Shown one piece after another: positions 13,849-23,814 of a DNA stretch of 64,000 bases (its first letter is position 1; the number at the start of each line of letters is the position of its first letter). A program made the translations under genes and the position numbers. The notes beneath the pieces are model-generated. The model ran no database searches. It was not told the origin of the DNA and worked only from the letters and a program-made list of their open reading frames with translations. The DNA is from Archangium gephyra (GTDB lineage: Bacteria; Myxococcota; Myxococcia; Myxococcales; Myxococcaceae), in NCBI RefSeq assembly GCF_001027285.1, contig NZ_CP011509.1, forward strand, positions 8,270,501 through 8,334,500, read 5' to 3'.

Positions 13849-15120
13849 ATGCCCCAGCCCATGAGATGGAATCCCCTGCTCGAGGGAGAGGAGCGCGAGA
13901 CGGCCCTGCGTCTCGTCGCCGGTATCGCGGAGGAGCTCTCGCTGCCGGAGCGGCTCGCGACCCCCGACCCCTCCTTCGCCTCGGGACAGGCCGGCATGGC
14001 GCTGCTGTTCTCCTACCTCGCACGCGCGGGTGCGCGGTCCCACCACCTGGAGCGAATGGAGCACCTGCTCGACTCGGCCTCGGAAGCGGTGGCCACGCAG
14101 CCGCTGCCTCCTGACCTCTACCAGGGCTTCACCGGCATCGCCTGGACCGTCGAGCACCTGCGGGGCACGGCCGTCGAGGAGGAGGATCCGCTCACGGAGA
14201 TCGACGAGGCCCTCTCCGGGCTGCTGCGGACCCGTCCCTGGCAGTACCACTATGATCTCGTGAGTGGCCTGGTGGGGCTGGGCGTCTACGCGCTGGAGCG
14301 GCTCCCCCGTCCAGGAGCCCGGGACTGCCTGGAGCAGCTCGTCGCCCGGCTCGCGGAGCTCGCCCAACCCGCCGCAGGAGGCCTGCGCTGGTGGACACCC
14401 CCGGCCCTCGTTCCAGCGTCGATGCGCGGGCAGTTCCCCGAGGGGGCGTACAACCTCGGCGTGGCCCACGGCATGCCGGGAGTGCTCTGGGTGCTCGCGG
14501 GGGCCGCCGCCACGGGCATCTCGACTTCCCAGGCGCTCGAGCTGCTGCGCGGAGGCTGGAGCTGGTTGATGGCACAGCGCCAGCCGGCCGCCAGCGCCTC
14601 GCGTTTTCCCTCGTGGCTCAGCGCCCACCACCAGACCTGGCCCAACCGCCCGGCGTGGTGCTACGGCGATCCCGGCATGGCGCTCACCCTGCTGCAGGTG
14701 GCCCGGGCCGTGGAGGAACCTGGCTGGGAGCAGGAGGCGCTGGCGCTCTGCCGTGAGGTGGCGGAGCGCTCGACGGACAGCGCGCAGGTCCAGGACGCGG
14801 GCCTGTGTCATGGCGCCGCCGGGCTGGCCCACCTCCACCACCGGCTCTTCCACGCCACCGGCGAGGAGGTTTTCGCACGGGCCTCGCGCGCCTGGTTCCG
14901 CAACACCCTGTCCTTCCACCGCCCGGGAGAGGGGCTGGGGGGCTTCCTCTCCCATGAAGTGCGGCCCGACCTCACGCGGGAGTGGCGCGCCTCCCCGGCG
15001 CTCCTCACGGGCGCCACCGGTGTCGCGCTGGCGCTGCTGGCCGCGGCCTCGCCGGTGGAGCCCGCGTGGGATCGGATGTTCCTCATGTCCCTTCCGCCCT
15101 CGCCCTCCGCCACGCCATGA
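13849..15120 (+). CDS. lanC: Lanthionine synthetase C-like cyclase (LanC)
   Basis: A 423-residue zinc enzyme that adds Cys thiols to dehydroalanine/dehydrobutyrine to form lanthionine rings. It shows the LanC repeat architecture: GLVGLGVYALERL, AHGMPGVLWVLAG, RPAWCYGDPGMAL and GLCHGAAGLAHLHHR. The zinc ligands are Cys271, Cys320 and His321, all present, so it should be active. The length matches stand-alone LanC proteins. Its stop overlaps the lanB start (ATGA), so the two are co-translated. Confidence 0.93.
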   Translation: MPQPMRWNPLLEGEERETALRLVAGIAEELSLPERLATPDPSFASGQAGMALLFSYLARAGARSHHLERMEHLLDSASEAVATQPLPPDLYQGFTGIAWTVEHLRGTAVEEEDPLTEIDEALSGLLRTRPWQYHYDLVSGLVGLGVYALERLPRPGARDCLEQLVARLAELAQPAAGGLRWWTPPALVPASMRGQFPEGAYNLGVAHGMPGVLWVLAGAAATGISTSQALELLRGGWSWLMAQRQPAASASRFPSWLSAHHQTWPNRPAWCYGDPGMALTLLQVARAVEEPGWEQEALALCREVAERSTDSAQVQDAGLCHGAAGLAHLHHRLFHATGEEVFARASRAWFRNTLSFHRPGEGLGGFLSHEVRPDLTREWRASPALLTGATGVALALLAAASPVEPAWDRMFLMSLPPSPSATP

Positions 15121-18100
15121 CCGCGCCCAACGGCTTCGTTCCCTCGGGCTTCTTCGCCCTCCGCACGCCCCTGTTGCCCTTCGATGAGCTGCTCGCGTGG
15201 AGCGAGGGGCTCTCGGCCCGCGAGGTCTCGCGACAGGGAGACCCGGCCCGGCTGGAAGCGGCGCTGGCCGCGGATCGCGCCCTGCTGCGCCAGCGGCTCC
15301 AGGCCGCGCTCGCCCGCCCCGAGGTTCGCGAGGCCCTCTTCCTCGCCTCGCCGTCGCTCGAGGAGAGTCACGACAGCTGGAGGAAGGCGCCCGAGAGCGA
15401 GCGCGGACAGAAGGTGGAACGCGCTCTCGTGCGCTACTGGTCCCGCCTCGCCGGACGCGCCACCCCGTTTGGCCTCTTCGCGGGTTGCTCCGTGGGCCAC
15501 CTGGGCGCGGCCACCCGGCTCGTGCTGGCCGGGCGCGAGCGGTACCAGCGGCACGCGCGGCTGGACATGGATTACGTCTGCACGCTGGCGGAGCGGCTGG
15601 CCGCCCTCCCCGAGCTGCGCGAGGAGCTCCTCTACCGTCCCAACTCCAGCCTCTACCGGGCGGGGGGACGGCTGCGCTACGCCGAGTCCCGCCTCCAGGG
15701 CCGGACGCGCACGTACCACCTCGTGGCGGTGGAGCCCACGGACTATCTGGAGGCCACGCTGATGAGGGCCCGCTCCGGCGCGAGCGCGCGCACGCTGGCC
15801 CGGGCGCTGGCGGACGCGGACCCGGACGTGTCGCTGGAGGAGGCCGAGGCCTACGTTGGAGAGCTGATCTCCAGTCAGCTCCTCGTCCCGGAGCTGACGC
15901 CCGCGGTGACGGGCCCCGAGCCCATCCATGATCTGCTCGCGAAGCTGCGGCCCTTCAACGCGGCCGCCGGGTTCCACCAGCGGCTGGAGGAGGCGCGGCG
16001 GGTTCTCGAGGAGCTGAAGCAGCAGCCACCCGGAGTGGACCCCGAGCGCTACCGGGCGCTCGCGCGGGGGTTGGAGGCACTGCCCGCGCCGGTGGAGCTG
16101 TCGCGCATGTTCCAGGTGGACATGGTGAAGCCCGCCGCGGAGCTGAAGCTGGGCCCGGGGCCCGTGGAGGAGCTCACCCGCGCCGTCCGGCTGCTGCACC
16201 GCCTCCACCCGGCCCAGGAGCAACTCAACCTGCGCACCTTCCGGGAGGCCTTCCAGCAGCGGTACGGCGAGCGCGAGGTCCCCCTCGTCGAGGTGCTCGA
16301 CGAGGAGGCGGGAATCGGCTTCGAGCAGGAGAACGTGCCTGGCGCGGAGGCCTCGCCCCTGTTGGAGGGGCTCACGTTCCCCGCCTCGAGCGCGGAGGAG
16401 CGCGTGGCCTGGGGAGTCCGGCAGCAGTACCTGCAGCGCCGGCTGGTGGAGACGCTGCGCACGGGCGCGCGGGAGCTGGTGCTGGACGAGCAGGACCTGA
16501 AGGCCCTGGAGACGCGGGACGCACCGCCCCTGCCGGATGCCTTCGCGGTCATGGCGACCCTGCTGGCGCCCTCGGAGGAGGCGCTCGGCGCCGGGGACTT
16601 CCAGGTGCTCGTCGAAGCGGTGGTGGGGCCCTCGGGAGCGAAACTGCTGGGCCGCTTCTGCCATGCGGACCCGGAGCTCCACCGGCAGGTGGAGGCACAC
16701 CTGCGCGCCGAGGAGGCGCTCCGCCCGGAAGTGCTCCACGCGGAGCTCGTTCATCAGCCCGAGGGACGGGTGGGCAACATCCTGAGCCGGCCCGTGCTGC
16801 GCGGGCATGAGCTCGTCTTCCTGGGGCGCTCGGGCGCGGAGCCGGAGCGGCAGATTCCCATCACCGATCTGCGCGTCAGCATCCAGGGGCGCCGCATCGT
16901 CCTGCGCTCGGCGAGCCTGGGGCGGGAGGTGCTGCCGCGGCTGACGAACGCGCACAACTTCGTCCAGGCACACCTGCGGCTCTACCGCTTCCTGGCCACC
17001 CTCCAGCAACAGGGCTCGGCGTCGGGCATGAAGTGGAGGTGGGGCGCTCTGGAGACGAGCCCGTTCCTGCCTCGCGTCGTCGCCGGACGGCTCATCCTCC
17101 AGCTCGCCCGGTGGCGGGTGCCGGCGGCGTCGCTCGAGGCGCTCGGCGAGGTGCAAGGCGGCGCGCGCTTCCAGGCGGTGCAGCGGCTGCGCGACGCGCT
17201 GGGACTGCCGCGCTTCGTGGGGGTGACGGACTCGGACAACGTGCTGCCGGTGGACCTCGACAACGTGCTGAGCGTGGAGACCTTCGTCCACCTGGTGAAG
17301 GGGCGCGAATACGTGGAGCTCGTCGAGCTGCCCGCCGAGGCCCGCTGCGTGCAGGGCCCCGAGGGCCGCTTCGTCAACGAGGTGGTGGTGCCCTTCGTGC
17401 GCACGGAGCGCCCGGCGGCCCCCGTGCCCCTGGCGCGCTCCGCACCGCTGCCCCGCTCGTTCTCCCCCGGCTCCGAGTGGCTCTACGCGAAGCTCTACAC
17501 GGGCACGGCCACGGCCGACCGCGTCCTGCTCGAGGCGATGGCGCCGCTGATGAGGGAGGCGCTGGCCTCGGGCGCGGCGGACCACGGGTTCTTCATCCGC
17601 TACGGGGACCCGGACTGGCACGTGCGCCTGCGCCTGCATGGGTCCCCCGCCCGGCTGCGGGGGGAGGTGCTCGGTGGGCTGTATGAGACGTTGGCCCCCT
17701 TGCAGCACGAGGGGCTGGTGTGGCGCGTGCAGTTGGACACGTACGAGCGCGAAGTGGAGCGCTACGGAGGGCCCGAGGCCATGCCGCTGGCCGAGCGCCT
17801 CTTCCACGTGGACAGCGAGGCGGTGCTGGAGTTGCTGGAACTGCACTCCGGCGACGCGGACGCACGCTGGCGCATGAGCCTGCTCGGCGTGGATGCGTTG
17901 CTCGGGGACCTGGGAATGGACCTGAAGGCGAAGCGCCGGGTGATGGGCCGGCTGCGCGAGGGCTACGGCCGGGAGTTCCGCGTGGACGTGGCGTTCGAGC
18001 GGCAGCTCGGCGAGAAGTTCCGCAAGCACCGGCAGGAGCTGGAGGCCCTGCTCGTGTCCACCTCATGGGAAGGCCTGCTCGCACCGGCACGGGAGGTGCT

Positions 18101-18326
18101 GCGGAGACGTTCGGAGCGGTCTGCCCCGTGGGTGGGCGAGCTGCGGGCCCGGGAGGCGGAAGGAAGGCTGAACCAGGGCGTGGAGCAGCTCGCCGAAAGC
18201 TACGTGCACATGCACGTCAACCGCATGCTGCGCACGGCCGCGCGGGCCCAGGAGCTCGTCCTCTACGATCTGCTCCACCGGCTCTACGAGTCCCGGGCCG
18301 CACGCCAGCGCCGCGCTACGGTGTGA
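15117..18326 (+). CDS. lanB: Full-length class I lanthipeptide dehydratase (LanB)
   Basis: A 1069-residue enzyme that glutamylates Ser/Thr of the precursor using glutamyl-tRNA and then eliminates glutamate to give dehydroamino acids. It begins MTAPNGFVPSGFFALRTPLL and has the lantibiotic dehydratase N-domain hallmark RYWSRLAGRATPFGLFAGCS near residue 105. The C-terminal 280 residues form the elimination (thiopeptide-type/SpaB C) domain: SEWLYAKLYTGTATADRVLL, then GFFIRYGDPDWHVRLRLHG. Both halves are present in one chain, as in NisB-type LanB. No lanT transporter, LanP protease or immunity gene is recognisable next to it. Confidence 0.93.
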   Translation: MTAPNGFVPSGFFALRTPLLPFDELLAWSEGLSAREVSRQGDPARLEAALAADRALLRQRLQAALARPEVREALFLASPSLEESHDSWRKAPESERGQKVERALVRYWSRLAGRATPFGLFAGCSVGHLGAATRLVLAGRERYQRHARLDMDYVCTLAERLAALPELREELLYRPNSSLYRAGGRLRYAESRLQGRTRTYHLVAVEPTDYLEATLMRARSGASARTLARALADADPDVSLEEAEAYVGELISSQLLVPELTPAVTGPEPIHDLLAKLRPFNAAAGFHQRLEEARRVLEELKQQPPGVDPERYRALARGLEALPAPVELSRMFQVDMVKPAAELKLGPGPVEELTRAVRLLHRLHPAQEQLNLRTFREAFQQRYGEREVPLVEVLDEEAGIGFEQENVPGAEASPLLEGLTFPASSAEERVAWGVRQQYLQRRLVETLRTGARELVLDEQDLKALETRDAPPLPDAFAVMATLLAPSEEALGAGDFQVLVEAVVGPSGAKLLGRFCHADPELHRQVEAHLRAEEALRPEVLHAELVHQPEGRVGNILSRPVLRGHELVFLGRSGAEPERQIPITDLRVSIQGRRIVLRSASLGREVLPRLTNAHNFVQAHLRLYRFLATLQQQGSASGMKWRWGALETSPFLPRVVAGRLILQLARWRVPAASLEALGEVQGGARFQAVQRLRDALGLPRFVGVTDSDNVLPVDLDNVLSVETFVHLVKGREYVELVELPAEARCVQGPEGRFVNEVVVPFVRTERPAAPVPLARSAPLPRSFSPGSEWLYAKLYTGTATADRVLLEAMAPLMREALASGAADHGFFIRYGDPDWHVRLRLHGSPARLRGEVLGGLYETLAPLQHEGLVWRVQLDTYEREVERYGGPEAMPLAERLFHVDSEAVLELLELHSGDADARWRMSLLGVDALLGDLGMDLKAKRRVMGRLREGYGREFRVDVAFERQLGEKFRKHRQELEALLVSTSWEGLLAPAREVLRRRSERSAPWVGELRAREAEGRLNQGVEQLAESYVHMHVNRMLRTAARAQELVLYDLLHRLYESRAARQRRATV

Positions 18327-18362
18327 GCACAAAATCGCTCGGGCTGTTACAGTGCGACTGCT

Positions 18363-18839
18363 ATGTCCCGGCCACTGACGCGAGCAGAGGAGAAATCTCT
18401 CCGCATCGGCCAGGCACGGGGTCGCCTCTTCCTCTCGCTCCGAAATGCCTCCGTCGCCGAAAAGCTCCAGGCGTACAAACGACTGGAGCTTCAGCTCCTC
18501 AAGCAGGAAGCACGCACGGCGAGTGAGCAGTTGGAGTTGCGGAGACGAATCGCCGAGGACCTGCTCACCGCAGCGAGTGAGGGTCCTTGGCGATTGTTCT
18601 CCCCCTACCTGCGGAGGATGGAGCGACTTGGCTACTCCGGACTGGACCGCTGCCTTCTGGCCTGCGTTCTTGCCGCGACGGCCTCAAAAAGTTCTCCCGC
18701 CGGGAAGCGAAAGACAGCCGAACTCATCGCTGACATCGAGCGGCGGACTCGTGGACGGAAGTACCACCCAGAGCACAGAGAGGAGATCAACAGCGCGGTG
18801 GAACGAGCCCGCCGACTCGCCGGTCTCGACTCCAGGTAA
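18363..18839 (+). CDS. Hypothetical protein, helical and basic
   Basis: A 158-residue protein not recognised. It begins MSRPLTRAEEKSLRIGQARG and appears mostly alpha-helical, with Lys/Arg-rich segments (RKTAELIADIERRTRGRK). It has no signal peptide or membrane segment. It starts 36 bases after lanB on the same strand, so it could be co-transcribed, but its lower GC makes it look more like the start of the following island. A role in the lanthipeptide pathway cannot be claimed. Confidence 0.6.
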   Translation: MSRPLTRAEEKSLRIGQARGRLFLSLRNASVAEKLQAYKRLELQLLKQEARTASEQLELRRRIAEDLLTAASEGPWRLFSPYLRRMERLGYSGLDRCLLACVLAATASKSSPAGKRKTAELIADIERRTRGRKYHPEHREEINSAVERARRLAGLDSR

Positions 18840-18952
18840 CATAGGCTGCACACTATCTCTGAGCACCAACAGTGGCGGGGCTAGCTGCGCTCAAAGGTCC
18901 TTGACGCCTTCCCAGGCCACATCGTCCCAAACCATCTACGAACGGTGAGAAC

Positions 18953-19684
18953 GTGATTCATTCTATCGCTGTCACTATCATTCCGGGTAGACCAATATCT
19001 GACAAAAAATCACCTCCACCAACCGCTAAATACCAACTCGACACCATCACACTAGACAGGATTGGCTCCATGTGGGGCGAAAGGCACGTACTCCATCTTG
19101 GAGCTCACTTCGACATTTACAGCATGACAGCTCCAGCCAGCTGGGGACTCACCAGTTCCATAGGGACTCCACCGCCTGGATCTTTACCTGTAAACATGCA
19201 GATAGCCGATCATAAGCTACCTGGCAGTTCAATCTCAGGTAACTTTGGAGAAGTCCTGACTGTTTTCTGCTTGGAGTCCCTTTCACGCAGGCCGCTCCAG
19301 ATCGGCCATCTTCGAGCGAATGTCGCAAACAAATCTGCTCCAGACCTGATGATAGAAACTACCCCTTTGGCCCATCATTTCCAGAAGCTTGGGATACCGT
19401 ATCCTATACCCTCAATCATTCCAGCCGAATGCAAGAACTCCGAATTCACCAGCGCACTCCGACAAATCTGTAAATATTGGGTACAAGCAACCACAGGATC
19501 TTCCACTTTTGGATTCGGATTGATTTCAAACATCTCCTATCGATACCGAAGCGTCAAAACACCCCAAGTCACCTTCTACCTACTTGCCCCCGTAAGTACG
19601 TCTGCGCTGGCAACCCTGCTGGCCAGTCACCCTCCCGACGATTTACGCAGGGACGATTTCAAAGGGTGTCTCTATGGCTTCTAG
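18953..19684 (+). CDS. Unrecognised protein with PD-(D/E)XK nuclease-like pattern, low-GC island
   Basis: A 243-residue protein. The GTG start at 18953 has GGTGAG just upstream. No family is recognised, but the residue pattern E100 (GNFGEVLTVFCLE), P130-D131 (KSAPDLMIE) and E159-C160-K161 (IPAECKNSEF) fits the E...PD...ExK core of the PD-(D/E)XK phosphodiesterase superfamily, with a helix expected after the ExK strand. Base composition is far lower in GC than the neighbours, with many codons rare elsewhere in the window, suggesting horizontal transfer. It overlaps the next gene by 11 bases, indicating a two-gene unit. Nuclease activity is inferred. Confidence 0.65.
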   Translation: MIHSIAVTIIPGRPISDKKSPPPTAKYQLDTITLDRIGSMWGERHVLHLGAHFDIYSMTAPASWGLTSSIGTPPPGSLPVNMQIADHKLPGSSISGNFGEVLTVFCLESLSRRPLQIGHLRANVANKSAPDLMIETTPLAHHFQKLGIPYPIPSIIPAECKNSEFTSALRQICKYWVQATTGSSTFGFGLISNISYRYRSVKTPQVTFYLLAPVSTSALATLLASHPPDDLRRDDFKGCLYGF

Positions 19685-20324
19685 ACGTCGCAGTTCGCTC
19701 ATCAAATGGGAACCTGAGCAGCGGATTGAACAGGAAGCATTACGCCATTTCAAGAGAGGGCAGATATTTTCTTGGCTGGGTGACAGCAATGGCGCTCAAG
19801 CAGAATTTAAAAAAACTGAGGAAGCAATCCAGCGAATAAATGGGCCTGAGAGGGGAAGAGCTCTCGATCTGATTACTGAAGCAGCTACACGCGCCCCCAG
19901 GTCTCGACTCAGTGAAAAGGTCGCGCCTCGGCGACATACATCTAAAGAGCACAACGTGGCCATTGGTATTCAACACATCCTGCTACCAATGGGGCCAACG
20001 CATTTCGAACTACGCGCCCAAGTAACTTGGAACAGCAGAAGGCTACATAGGGCCATACATGGTATTCGCCTGAGTATACCATCTGACCAAGTCAACCTGA
20101 CTCACTTGGGCATTCAATGGATAGAAGTTCACGACGAATACACGGCAACAGTCATGCTCACCCCAGCAGACGGGGTCATTTTTGGACATATCCATGCTCA
20201 CAGATTCCTTGATGAGAATACAGCTATAACGGCCTTATCAGAGACATTGGCATTGATGGTGATTCAACGCCTGACAGACGGGATTCATGCAAATAAGAAT
20301 TCAAAGCGTTCGCACTCACCATAG
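19674..20324 (+). CDS. Unrecognised partner protein in low-GC island
   Basis: A 216-residue protein starting inside the end of the PD-(D/E)XK-like gene. It opens with a basic, helical region (MASRRRSSLIKWEPEQRIEQ; HFKRGQIFSWLGDSNGAQAE looks like one TPR-type helical hairpin). A region of likely beta strands follows, with several His residues (FGHIHAHRFLDENT). No known domain is recognised. It shares the low GC of its upstream partner. The overlap implies a joint function, perhaps a defence or mobile-element module, but nothing in the sequence proves it. Confidence 0.6.
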   Translation: MASRRRSSLIKWEPEQRIEQEALRHFKRGQIFSWLGDSNGAQAEFKKTEEAIQRINGPERGRALDLITEAATRAPRSRLSEKVAPRRHTSKEHNVAIGIQHILLPMGPTHFELRAQVTWNSRRLHRAIHGIRLSIPSDQVNLTHLGIQWIEVHDEYTATVMLTPADGVIFGHIHAHRFLDENTAITALSETLALMVIQRLTDGIHANKNSKRSHSP

Positions 20325-20465
20325 AGCAGTCGCCCAGAGAGGGGGCAGAGATTTCGAGAGACACAACCCGGCACGACGCGAGGCGGGAAGGAGAAAAGAG
20401 CACTCGTCCACGCCGAGTCTCGTTCTGACTTGAGTCCGCGTTTCGGGTCTTTGACAGCGTCTTGG

Positions 20466-21725
20466 TCAGCGGCGCAAGGTCGGGTCGACACGGTTGGCGA
20501 AGTCGTACAGCCGTGCCGCCTTGGAACGGTAGTCCGCGGACGGTACATTCGAGACCAGCGTACCGGCTTCGATCCGCTTCGCGCTCTGATCCAGGTCAAG
20601 GGCCGCCTGACGCGCACAGACGGCGAGGCCCAGCGAACGCGGCGTGTGTCCCAAGGCGTCCACCAGGACGAGCGCCGTGTCCACATGGCCAGCATTCAAG
20701 GCAGCCATGATTACCCCCTCGTCCACCGTGGCACCGCGCTTCAACAATTCACGCGCGAGCTCCGGGTCCACGGCATGCGCTCCGTGGCGCAAGGCACCCA
20801 CCGCTGGCGCGCCGCGATCGAGCAGCACCCGCGCGACCTTCAGTGCCCTCGCAGCGAGGGCATGCTCCAGTACGCCCGCGTTCCCGCGAAGCTTCTCGAA
20901 TAGATTACATCCGAGCGAGTCCAGCCTCGTGAGCAGCTCCACGTCATCCGTGCGTGCGGCGCGCTCAAGCGCGAGGCGGCGCAGCAAGGGGCGCTCCTCG
21001 ATCGAACCGTCCGCGACGGCGGCGCGCCAGTCGAGGATCGAGGCCCGGACGAGTTGCGCCAGCTTCTCGGAAGCGGTACGCCCCGCCGTCCCGAGTTCCG
21101 CCAGCTCGTCGAGCGCCTCCAGCATCTCCACTCCGGTCGCGTTCCCGTCGCTCTCGAACGGATCCTCTTCCAGGACGAGCATGCGGAAGAGTTCGCGCAC
21201 ATCGTTCGCCAGGCGCGTGACGGAGTCCTCGTTCAAGTGGAAGACCCATCCCGGAGGCAGGCCCTCCGACCAGACATGGACCGAGCCATGCTCACGCCCT
21301 GGCGTCACGATGGCGTAGAGCCGCTCCAGGTACTCGAAGCCTCCGAACGGAAGTGCCTTCAGGACGCCCGGCCACGCCTCGCCGCGCTCCTTCGCGGCAT
21401 CCCGTGCCAGCGATTCCTCATGCTCGATCCATCCCCACAGGTCCCTATAACCGCCGTTCTCGGGAAAGAAGAGTTCCCTGAACGAGAGGCTGGACTCGTG
21501 CTCTCCGAACCGCGCGCGCAGATCGTAGGAGAGGTGCCCGCCGAATGCCGTCCGCCATAGCGCGAGCAGAGCCTCGGGCAGAGGCCCGGCACAGTGCTTC
21601 GCGAGTTCGATCAGGACCTTGTCCTCGACAGGTGGCTGAGCGTCGAGGATGAGCCGATCCTCAAAGACCGCGATGCGAGCCTCGCGCATCGCGTCGCGTT
21701 CCGCATCCGAAAAGGAGGGGGTCAT
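20466..21725 (-). CDS. SMI1/KNR4-domain protein with ankyrin-like repeats
   Basis: A 419-residue cytoplasmic protein. The ATG at 21725 begins MTPSFSDAERDAMREARIAV. Residues of about 30-200 look like an SMI1/KNR4 (SUKH) domain: LPEALLALWRTAFGGHLSYD near residue 45, then GGFEYLERLYAIVTPGREHG and HLNEDSVTRLANDVRELFRM. Residues of about 255-400 contain degenerate ankyrin-type repeats (LLTRLDSLGCNLFEKLRGNAGVLEHALAARALK region; ELLKRGATVDEGVIMAALNA). SUKH proteins are frequently immunity proteins of bacterial toxin systems. It starts 4 bases after the stop of the secreted crystallin-domain gene, so the two form an operon. Confidence 0.75.
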   Translation of the reverse strand: MTPSFSDAERDAMREARIAVFEDRLILDAQPPVEDKVLIELAKHCAGPLPEALLALWRTAFGGHLSYDLRARFGEHESSLSFRELFFPENGGYRDLWGWIEHEESLARDAAKERGEAWPGVLKALPFGGFEYLERLYAIVTPGREHGSVHVWSEGLPPGWVFHLNEDSVTRLANDVRELFRMLVLEEDPFESDGNATGVEMLEALDELAELGTAGRTASEKLAQLVRASILDWRAAVADGSIEERPLLRRLALERAARTDDVELLTRLDSLGCNLFEKLRGNAGVLEHALAARALKVARVLLDRGAPAVGALRHGAHAVDPELARELLKRGATVDEGVIMAALNAGHVDTALVLVDALGHTPRSLGLAVCARQAALDLDQSAKRIEAGTLVSNVPSADYRSKAARLYDFANRVDPTLRR

Positions 21726-21729
21726 GCGC

Positions 21730-23175
21730 TCAGTACCCCAAGTACACGAATCGCATCGAGGACGTCTTGTCCCCAAAGCTCGCGTTGTTGAGGTTCACCG
21801 AGCCGCGGCCACTGAGTTCCCGGTAACCGCCTCCGAAATTGGCGTGCTCGTACAGCCGGGCCCGCCATCCGTAGGGCAGGCAGTAGCGCACGGCCGAGGT
21901 CTTGTCGTTGAAGCCCTCGATGTAGGAGAAGTTGGAGTAGCTCTCCTTACCGTAATCGGGGTAGTCGATCATCAGCCCGCGGTCGCTGAAGTCGGAGTCG
22001 TCGTACAGCTCGACGAAGGCCCGGTTGATGTCGCTGTCGCAGCCGGGATTGGGGAAGGTCGCGCGGAACTCCATCATCTTCACGGATGCACCAGGTCCAT
22101 CGTTGTCATGCTCGGTGCCGTAGACGATGAGCTGGCCCCACGGGTCCACGTAGACGCCGCCCGCCGCGTCGAGGTTGCACTGCCGGTTGGTGCCAGTGTC
22201 GTAACCGGGCGAGGGATAACCGCAGTACAGGTGCTTCTTCGCGACCTTGGTGATGACCGCCTGACCGTACTCCTCCGTCAGCCGGAACAGATCGATCCAG
22301 TCCTCGCCGTTGGCGGAGTTCAGGTGCGTTCCCGCCAGGAAGAGCGTGCCGTCACACTGGGTCACCAGATCGAGGTTCTGGTAGTTGCCGAACTCCGAGT
22401 CTCCGATGGCCGAGCGCAGCTCGCCCTCGTTCCAATTGTCCAGCGGCACGAAGCCCGCGTCCGCCGAGCGCAGGTCCCCACCCATCGAGCGGTAGAACTC
22501 GAGGTTGTTGGCATTGGCCCGCCCGATGATGAGCAGGAAGCGCCCGTCCGAGAGCTTCGCCAACGAGGCCGTGCCCACGGCCGACGTCTGTCCCCACTGG
22601 CTCACCGGCAGGCGGACGGGGCTCCAGGGCGTGGCCATGTCATAGAACACGACGCGTCCGTTCTCGCCCGACGGACTCGATTCCAGCGGCACGGCGAGCA
22701 GGTTGCCCGAGGCCTGCATGCCGCCCGCGTGGGTGTAGCTCATGTCCCAGAACCACGCGTCGGTGATGGCCCGATCCGAGCCGGACGGTGAGGTAGCGGG
22801 ATAGGAGACGTTGGGCTCGAGGCGGTTGGAGCGGAATCGGGCGCCTTCCGTGTTCCGGGAGCCCATTTCCACCACCGTGAAGGCCTTGGTCGTCCCCGAG
22901 TGCGAGACGGCGAGGTACCGGCCCCCGGCGCCAGGCAGACGCTGAATGCCCTGCCAGTGATTGAACAGCGTGACCGGATCTCCGATGGGATGGAAGCCGA
23001 GCACGTCCCCGTGATCGCGCAGTCCATTCACGGCGGCGGCCGCGTCGGGCACGCACCGGTTACAGTCGTCCGCGCCCCATCCACAGGCGGCTCCCGTCCA
23101 TTGGGCGAAGGCACTCCCTCCGCTCAGGCAGGTGGCCAGCAGGCCCAGGGCTCCAAGGCTCCGAATCCTCTTCAT
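21730..23175 (-). CDS. Secreted protein with C-terminal beta/gamma-crystallin domain
   Basis: About 481 residues. A signal peptide (MKRIRSLGALGLLATCLSGG, cleavage near AFAQ) is followed by a region of about 350 residues not assigned to a family but with beta-propeller-like strands. The C-terminal 85 residues form two Greek-key motifs of beta/gamma-crystallin type (VELYDDSDFSDRGLMIDYPD; ARLYEHANFGGGYRELSGRG; FGDKTSSMRF). These domains often bind calcium. GGAGG lies 7 bases before a GTG at 23181 and 13 before the ATG at 23175, so either may be the true start. The SMI1-ankyrin gene follows 4 bases after its stop. Confidence 0.78.
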   Translation of the reverse strand: MKRIRSLGALGLLATCLSGGSAFAQWTGAACGWGADDCNRCVPDAAAAVNGLRDHGDVLGFHPIGDPVTLFNHWQGIQRLPGAGGRYLAVSHSGTTKAFTVVEMGSRNTEGARFRSNRLEPNVSYPATSPSGSDRAITDAWFWDMSYTHAGGMQASGNLLAVPLESSPSGENGRVVFYDMATPWSPVRLPVSQWGQTSAVGTASLAKLSDGRFLLIIGRANANNLEFYRSMGGDLRSADAGFVPLDNWNEGELRSAIGDSEFGNYQNLDLVTQCDGTLFLAGTHLNSANGEDWIDLFRLTEEYGQAVITKVAKKHLYCGYPSPGYDTGTNRQCNLDAAGGVYVDPWGQLIVYGTEHDNDGPGASVKMMEFRATFPNPGCDSDINRAFVELYDDSDFSDRGLMIDYPDYGKESYSNFSYIEGFNDKTSAVRYCLPYGWRARLYEHANFGGGYRELSGRGSVNLNNASFGDKTSSMRFVYLGY

Positions 23176-23243
23176 GCTCACGGTCATTCCTCCGGGTGAG
23201 GGGGCAGTCTGCCAGAGGACGGGAGGGCTCTGTGCGGGCCTTC

Positions 23244-23546
23244 TCACTCGTCCACATCGACGTAACCCACCTCTCGCTGATGCCGCAGGGCGAGCACCAA
23301 CACGGTGTCCTCCGCTTTCAGGAAGCGGTAGAGCGCGATGTATCCCGTGCGACCCCGAGAGATGACCAGCTCGCGCAGCCCTTGCTCGGCGGGGCGTCCG
23401 ATCAGCGGATGCCTCCCTAGAACGGACATGGCCTCGCTGATCCGCGCGACTGTGACCTCCGTCAGCTCAGGCGAATGCTCGGCGACGAAGTCGACGATCC
23501 GCTCGAAGTCGGCCAACGCCCTGGAGGCATAGACTACTAGCGCCAT
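23244..23546 (-). CDS. Type II toxin, RelE/ParE family
   Basis: A 100-residue toxin. It starts MALVVYASRALADFERIVDF and contains the RelE/ParE hallmark segments HPLIGRPAEQGLRELVIS and a terminal strand EDTVLVLALRHQREVGY. Members inhibit gyrase (ParE) or cleave ribosome-bound mRNA (RelE); which applies here cannot be told. The gene lies directly after the antitoxin gene, in the usual antitoxin-toxin order. Its ATG would overlap the antitoxin stop by a few bases if the antitoxin frame were intact. Confidence 0.85.
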   Translation of the reverse strand: MALVVYASRALADFERIVDFVAEHSPELTEVTVARISEAMSVLGRHPLIGRPAEQGLRELVISRGRTGYIALYRFLKAEDTVLVLALRHQREVGYVDVDE

Positions 23547-23814
23547 GGCGTGGCCTTGAGGCGCCGGGTCCTGCCCCCCGGGCCCGAGCCGCCATGGCTT
23601 CGTGCACCTCGTCCGCGTTGAAGCCCTCGCCCGTCTCGAGCGCCTCTTTCTCCGCGGCCAGTGCCTCTTCGACGAAGCGGCGTCTGCGCTCCGCCTGGGC
23701 TACCTGCTGCTCGATGGCCTCGACCATGAAGGCGTGAGGACTCTTGCCCGCCCCTTTCGCCGCCGCCTCGACCCGGCTCTTGAGTTGAGGAGGCAGCTTG
23801 AGGGATGTCGCCAT
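23467..23814 (-). CDS. Ribbon-helix-helix antitoxin with probable frameshifted C-terminus
   Basis: A CopG/ParD-like antitoxin. The N-terminus MATSLKLPPQLKSRVEAAAK plus GKSPHAFMVEAIEQQVAQAE is a DNA-binding ribbon-helix-helix domain (about residues 1-48). The middle ALETGEGFNADEVHEAMAAR is the toxin-binding tail. As read, the frame continues 80 bases into the toxin gene, giving an atypical 115-residue protein. Adding one base in the six-G run at 23574-23579 would instead give ARARGGRTRRLKATPWR and a TAG at 23537, a typical end that overlaps the toxin ATG. So this is either a one-base deletion, a sequencing error, or programmed slippage. Confidence 0.75.
   Translation of the reverse strand: MATSLKLPPQLKSRVEAAAKGAGKSPHAFMVEAIEQQVAQAERRRRFVEEALAAEKEALETGEGFNADEVHEAMAARARGAGPGASRPRHGASSLCLQGVGRLRADRRLRRRAFA

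Follow-up and report, generated by a model that had tools for sequence, protein, structure and literature searches.

A low-GC pair of orphan genes with PD-(D/E)XK-like residues in an accessory segment of the Archangium gephyra genome

Two overlapping genes of unusually low GC content in the myxobacterium Archangium gephyra raise the question of whether they form a nuclease-based system of genetic conflict, or whether they are orphan sequences of foreign composition in which a nuclease-like motif occurs by coincidence. The window analyzed here is a stretch of 64,000 nucleotides from a genome available as a single contig of 12,489,432 bp, in which an earlier sequence-only reading had proposed a two-gene module as a candidate undescribed system. 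Both genes are encoded on the plus strand: ORF1 (18953-19684) begins with GTG and specifies an orphan protein of 243 aa, and ORF2 (19674-20324) begins with ATG and specifies an orphan protein of 216 aa, with 11 bases common to the 3' end of the former and the 5' end of the latter. The coordinates and the overlap given in that reading are exact, and its statement that the pair has clearly lower GC is borne out (~49% vs 69% around it). The GC fraction is 0.496 in ORF1 and 0.487 in ORF2, and that of the combined stretch, 0.492, can be set against same-size windows elsewhere in the 64 kb, for which the mean is 0.691 (sd 0.025) and the minimum 0.621.

ORF1 and ORF2 are probably genuine genes, because open reading frames of such length and pairing are rare in simulated DNA. 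In 2000 first-order Markov sequences with the composition of the region, the longest open reading frame had a median length of 109 aa; 8 sequences reached 243 aa, and none contained two frames of the size of ORF1 and ORF2. A plausible ribosome site, AAAGGG, is located ~8 bases 5' of the ORF2 start codon. The GC content of ORF1 by codon position is nearly flat (0.51/0.48/0.50), and codon periodicity therefore lends this gene no support. Both products are basic, with pI values of 9.1 and 10.2 for ORF1 and ORF2, respectively; that the two might be paralogues of each other was rejected on comparison.

The low-GC stretch that was first noticed belongs to a longer accessory segment (18315-21727; 3,413 bp), which the closest relative (G004, ~90% identity) does not have. 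When 12.5 kb was compared with the genus, positions 17692-18314 and 21728 onward of the window were found to abut in that relative, with 3 extra bases between them. A lanthipeptide dehydratase gene and the gene after it converge at this site, and the segment sits exactly between their ends: its left edge precedes the dehydratase stop by a few codons, and its right edge is 2 bases past the stop of the convergent neighbour. The dehydratase gene of the relative does not have the stop codon used here, and its frame continues to RRSAQYPR vs RRATV in the window. The segment may have been gained here or lost in the relative; neither terminal inverted repeats nor a target-site duplication were found at its ends, and no match was obtained in Rfam.

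Searches for relatives of the two proteins were consistently negative. Neither ORF1 nor ORF2 has a match in Pfam, NCBIfam, PHROGs or PADLOC, in agreement with the initial remark that neither was recognised, and no credible relative was found in the family genomes, in ~195 Myxococcota genomes, or in plasmids, phages and viral contigs, the phage matches of ORF1 lying at E ~0.8 only. ORF1 likewise has no match among PDB sequences, and the only PDB sequence match of ORF2 is an antibody heavy chain (E 0.047). An apparent relative from the scan of genome contigs (L004) proved to be MraY, with which an octapeptide, HHFQKLGI, is shared by chance; similarly, weak matches in three genomes (G067, G089 and G162) are located in unrelated high-GC frames or in other genes. 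A low-stringency search with the core (E up to 1) produced matches in 68 genomes, and the catalytic residues were kept in 0 of the 29 examined. The contig scan requires exact short peptides and detects close relatives only, and the sensitive searches were confined to Myxococcota; distant relatives outside the phylum are therefore possible. The proposed foreign origin and tight coupling of the pair are thus supported, through the extreme composition, the absence of the segment from the closest relative, and the lack of relatives in the phylum.

Of the proposal that ORF1 contains a PD-(D/E)XK nuclease core, the part concerning the residues stands: E100, P130-D131 and E159-x-K161 are present at exactly the positions given and in suitable spacing. 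They follow the order FGE(100)...APD(131)LMIE...IIPAE(159)CK(161)NS...ALRQICKYW, which resembles the core of this superfamily and includes the catalytic D and E/D-x-K in order (D131, E159 and K161). Read directly from the protein sequence, the context of the motif is as would be anticipated in such a fold, with E-x-K preceded by a hydrophobic strand and followed by a helix-like ALRQICKYW. A strict rule, in which PD is followed by E-x-K with a hydrophobic strand, is matched by 0.56-0.66% of ORF1 shuffles and, among the 37 other window genes, by 2. A loose rule of D followed by [DE]-x-K is matched by 9% of shuffles; an extended rule, which is biased because it was written after inspecting ORF1, is matched by one of the two genes that satisfy the strict rule.

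Enzymes of this superfamily have a restriction-endonuclease-like fold with an alpha-beta-beta-beta-alpha-beta core, for which ORF1 is a candidate. The AlphaFold model of ORF1, built with no alignment, has a mean pLDDT of 35 and is unusable, and the helix expected after E-x-K is absent from it; in Foldseek, this low-confidence model reached a best E of 0.14, with no restriction-type nuclease among the matches listed. The corresponding model of ORF2, also built with no alignment, has a mean pLDDT of 47, and only its N-terminal three-helix bundle (residues 14-73), with values near 80, is of usable confidence; fold searches with the low-confidence models of both proteins yielded noise only. Moreover, no curated superfamily profile in Pfam, NCBIfam or PADLOC matches ORF1; many true PD-(D/E)XK members are also without a profile match, so that a missing match is weak evidence. 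ORF1 therefore shares with the superfamily the canonical order and plausible spacing of E, PD and E-x-K, but differs from it in having no sequence-profile match, no confident fold, and no homologue in which conservation could be seen. Judged by its residues, ORF1 is a plausible candidate PD-(D/E)XK nuclease, for which the balance is about even.

Three further features occupy the remainder of the segment. Upstream of the pair, a gene on the plus strand (18363-18839) encodes a basic protein of 158 aa from a multi-copy myxobacterial family that 34 of the 92 searched genomes contain, in as many as 9 copies per genome. Several close relatives of this protein directly follow a gene for a small cysteine-rich secreted or lipoprotein-like product, one of them with an Rhs-like start, and the family and the cysteine-rich gene look like a toxin-partner pair; beside the gene at 18363-18839, the cysteine-rich gene is missing. 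Tested members of the family and of its secreted partner have no Pfam match above the cut-off. The family comprises proteins of about 150-180 aa, further examples being located in L012 (1037-1941), L018 (1043-1956) and L073 (3563-4608), and the small secreted partner has the pattern GPGPG..CASTLDCACKNG..C.YY..C.

Downstream of ORF2, two repeats of ~67 and ~60 bp (20334-20468) represent the ends of a transposon family of the IS200/Y1 type. Both repeats are dispersed in all six of the genus genomes (6/6), and the stretch is, by comparison of these copies, a transposon relic with collapsed ends, because at other loci the same repeats flank a gene for a Y1/IS200-like transposase (of two Pfam matches, one slightly exceeds the cut-off and one falls slightly short of it). 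In some copies, the ends hold tandem repeats of a terminal GGTGTCAAAGAA-type sequence (L085, L086, L087 and L089 were compared). As in the IS200/Y1 (RAYT-like) transposons of the genus, both element ends are present, here between ORF2 and ORF4, whereas the transposase has been lost; the ends lie side by side and do not bracket ORF1-ORF2, and the pair is therefore not the cargo of that element. The last gene, ORF4 (20466-21725, minus strand), encodes 419 aa with a match to SUKH-1 (SMI1/KNR4) below the Pfam cut-off; no counterpart was found in 95 further genomes from the family.

The surroundings of the segment do not support a defence-island context: ordinary genes flank it, and its four genes fit no PADLOC model. 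On the left, the lantibiotic dehydratase gene (14982-18326, plus strand; Lant_dehydr_N and _C) and a LanC-like gene together make up a probable lanthipeptide cluster (13849-18326), accompanied by alginate lyase, VanW-like, methyltransferase, GST and molybdopterin genes. On the right, a 505-aa gene (21730-23247, minus strand), which has no Pfam family above the cut-off and is present in relatives, is the immediate neighbour; a ParE-type toxin gene is also found on this side, followed by genes for SpoIID, TonB and cation-efflux proteins. The ParE-type toxin has a putative antitoxin upstream, the two frames overlapping (23244-23814, minus strand). The only PADLOC matches in the flanks (mads_2 and a type IIG enzyme) concern one plain methyltransferase-domain protein, and a defence island was rejected. 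Compared with the PADLOC catalogue (2023), ORF1-ORF2 resembles its entries in being a small operon with foreign composition and a possible nuclease, but no model fits the pair and its flanks carry no defence genes.

The explanation favored here, albeit tentatively and with less than even confidence, is that ORF1-ORF2 represents a horizontally acquired two-gene conflict operon, composed of a candidate nuclease and its partner, in a strain-specific segment. ORF1 would be a small metal-dependent PD-(D/E)XK nuclease whose catalytic residues would be D131, E159 and K161, and its partner would be ORF2, the N-terminal helical bundle of which may bind ORF1 or a trigger; together, the two could take part in intracellular genetic conflict, either by cutting invading DNA or as a toxin held in check. 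The low GC content, the length of the frames, their overlap with the accompanying ribosome site, the lack of the segment in the closest relative and the ORF1 residues are consistent with such an operon, as is the resemblance of the neighbours in the segment to immunity and toxin-associated genes. This explanation is opposed by the lack of any family, PDB entry or relative in support of the nuclease, by the poor ORF1 model, by the two other window genes with the strict pattern, by flanks devoid of defence genes, and by the missing codon periodicity of ORF1. Alternatively, ORF1 and ORF2 may be ORFans of this strain or foreign genes in decay, with no nuclease function and a coincidental PD...ExK motif, a reading that is doubtful in itself and nearly as likely as the conflict operon. 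It accounts for the failure to find relatives in any set searched, for the recurrence of the strict pattern, for the flat codon-position GC of ORF1 and for the transposon relic adjoining ORF2; however, two long, coupled and intact frames are unlikely by chance, as the simulations indicate, and the ORF1 motif has a fitting sequence context.

It is less probable, and on the whole unlikely, that the pair is a cassette of toxin and immunity (or accessory) genes for contact-dependent kin killing, with the segment serving as a store of such genes. In myxobacteria, cassettes of this kind mark strain identity, and kin discrimination in Myxococcus xanthus is governed by nuclease toxins with immunity proteins (PMC12077131). 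The frequent position of relatives of the 158-aa protein directly after cysteine-rich secreted genes (some lipobox-like, one Rhs-like) favors this assignment, as does the weak SUKH match of ORF4; SitI1 of M. xanthus belongs to the SUKH family (PMC5562445). The opposite-strand ORF4 and the upstream 158-aa family, of putative function, are the immunity-gene candidates near the pair. An 11-bp overlap is likewise found between sitB1 and sitA1 (PMC5562445), a shared feature that is weak evidence. The locus resembles the SitBAI cassettes of Myxococcus (PMC5562445) in being strain-specific and multi-gene, in its 11-bp overlap and, if the sub-threshold match of ORF4 is genuine, in a SUKH-family protein, but its gene order is different and ORF1 and ORF2 have no known toxin domain. 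SitA carries a type II signal sequence with a lipobox (PMC5562445), whereas no signal peptide or lipobox is evident by eye in ORF1, which starts MIHSIAVTIIPGRP, or ORF2, which starts MASRRRSSLIKW, and neither has a Pfam match to a delivery domain. In addition, both proteins are basic, in contrast to the acidic immunity proteins described in Myxococcus (PMC12077131), and the SUKH score of ORF4 falls under the Pfam cut-off.

That the pair constitutes an undescribed conflict system, with a candidate PD-(D/E)XK enzyme of high divergence that is regulated or targeted by a helical-bundle protein, in the single genome from which it is known, appears rather improbable. As the evidence stands, ORF1 and ORF2 are a pair of orphan genes of the usual strain-specific kind, and the segment that contains them is a marked site where accessory genes vary between near relatives. 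Should ORF1 and ORF2 prove to be a nuclease system, they would represent a divergent two-gene module for genetic conflict without a catalogued relative, and the segment would show where such genes gather in a myxobacterium.
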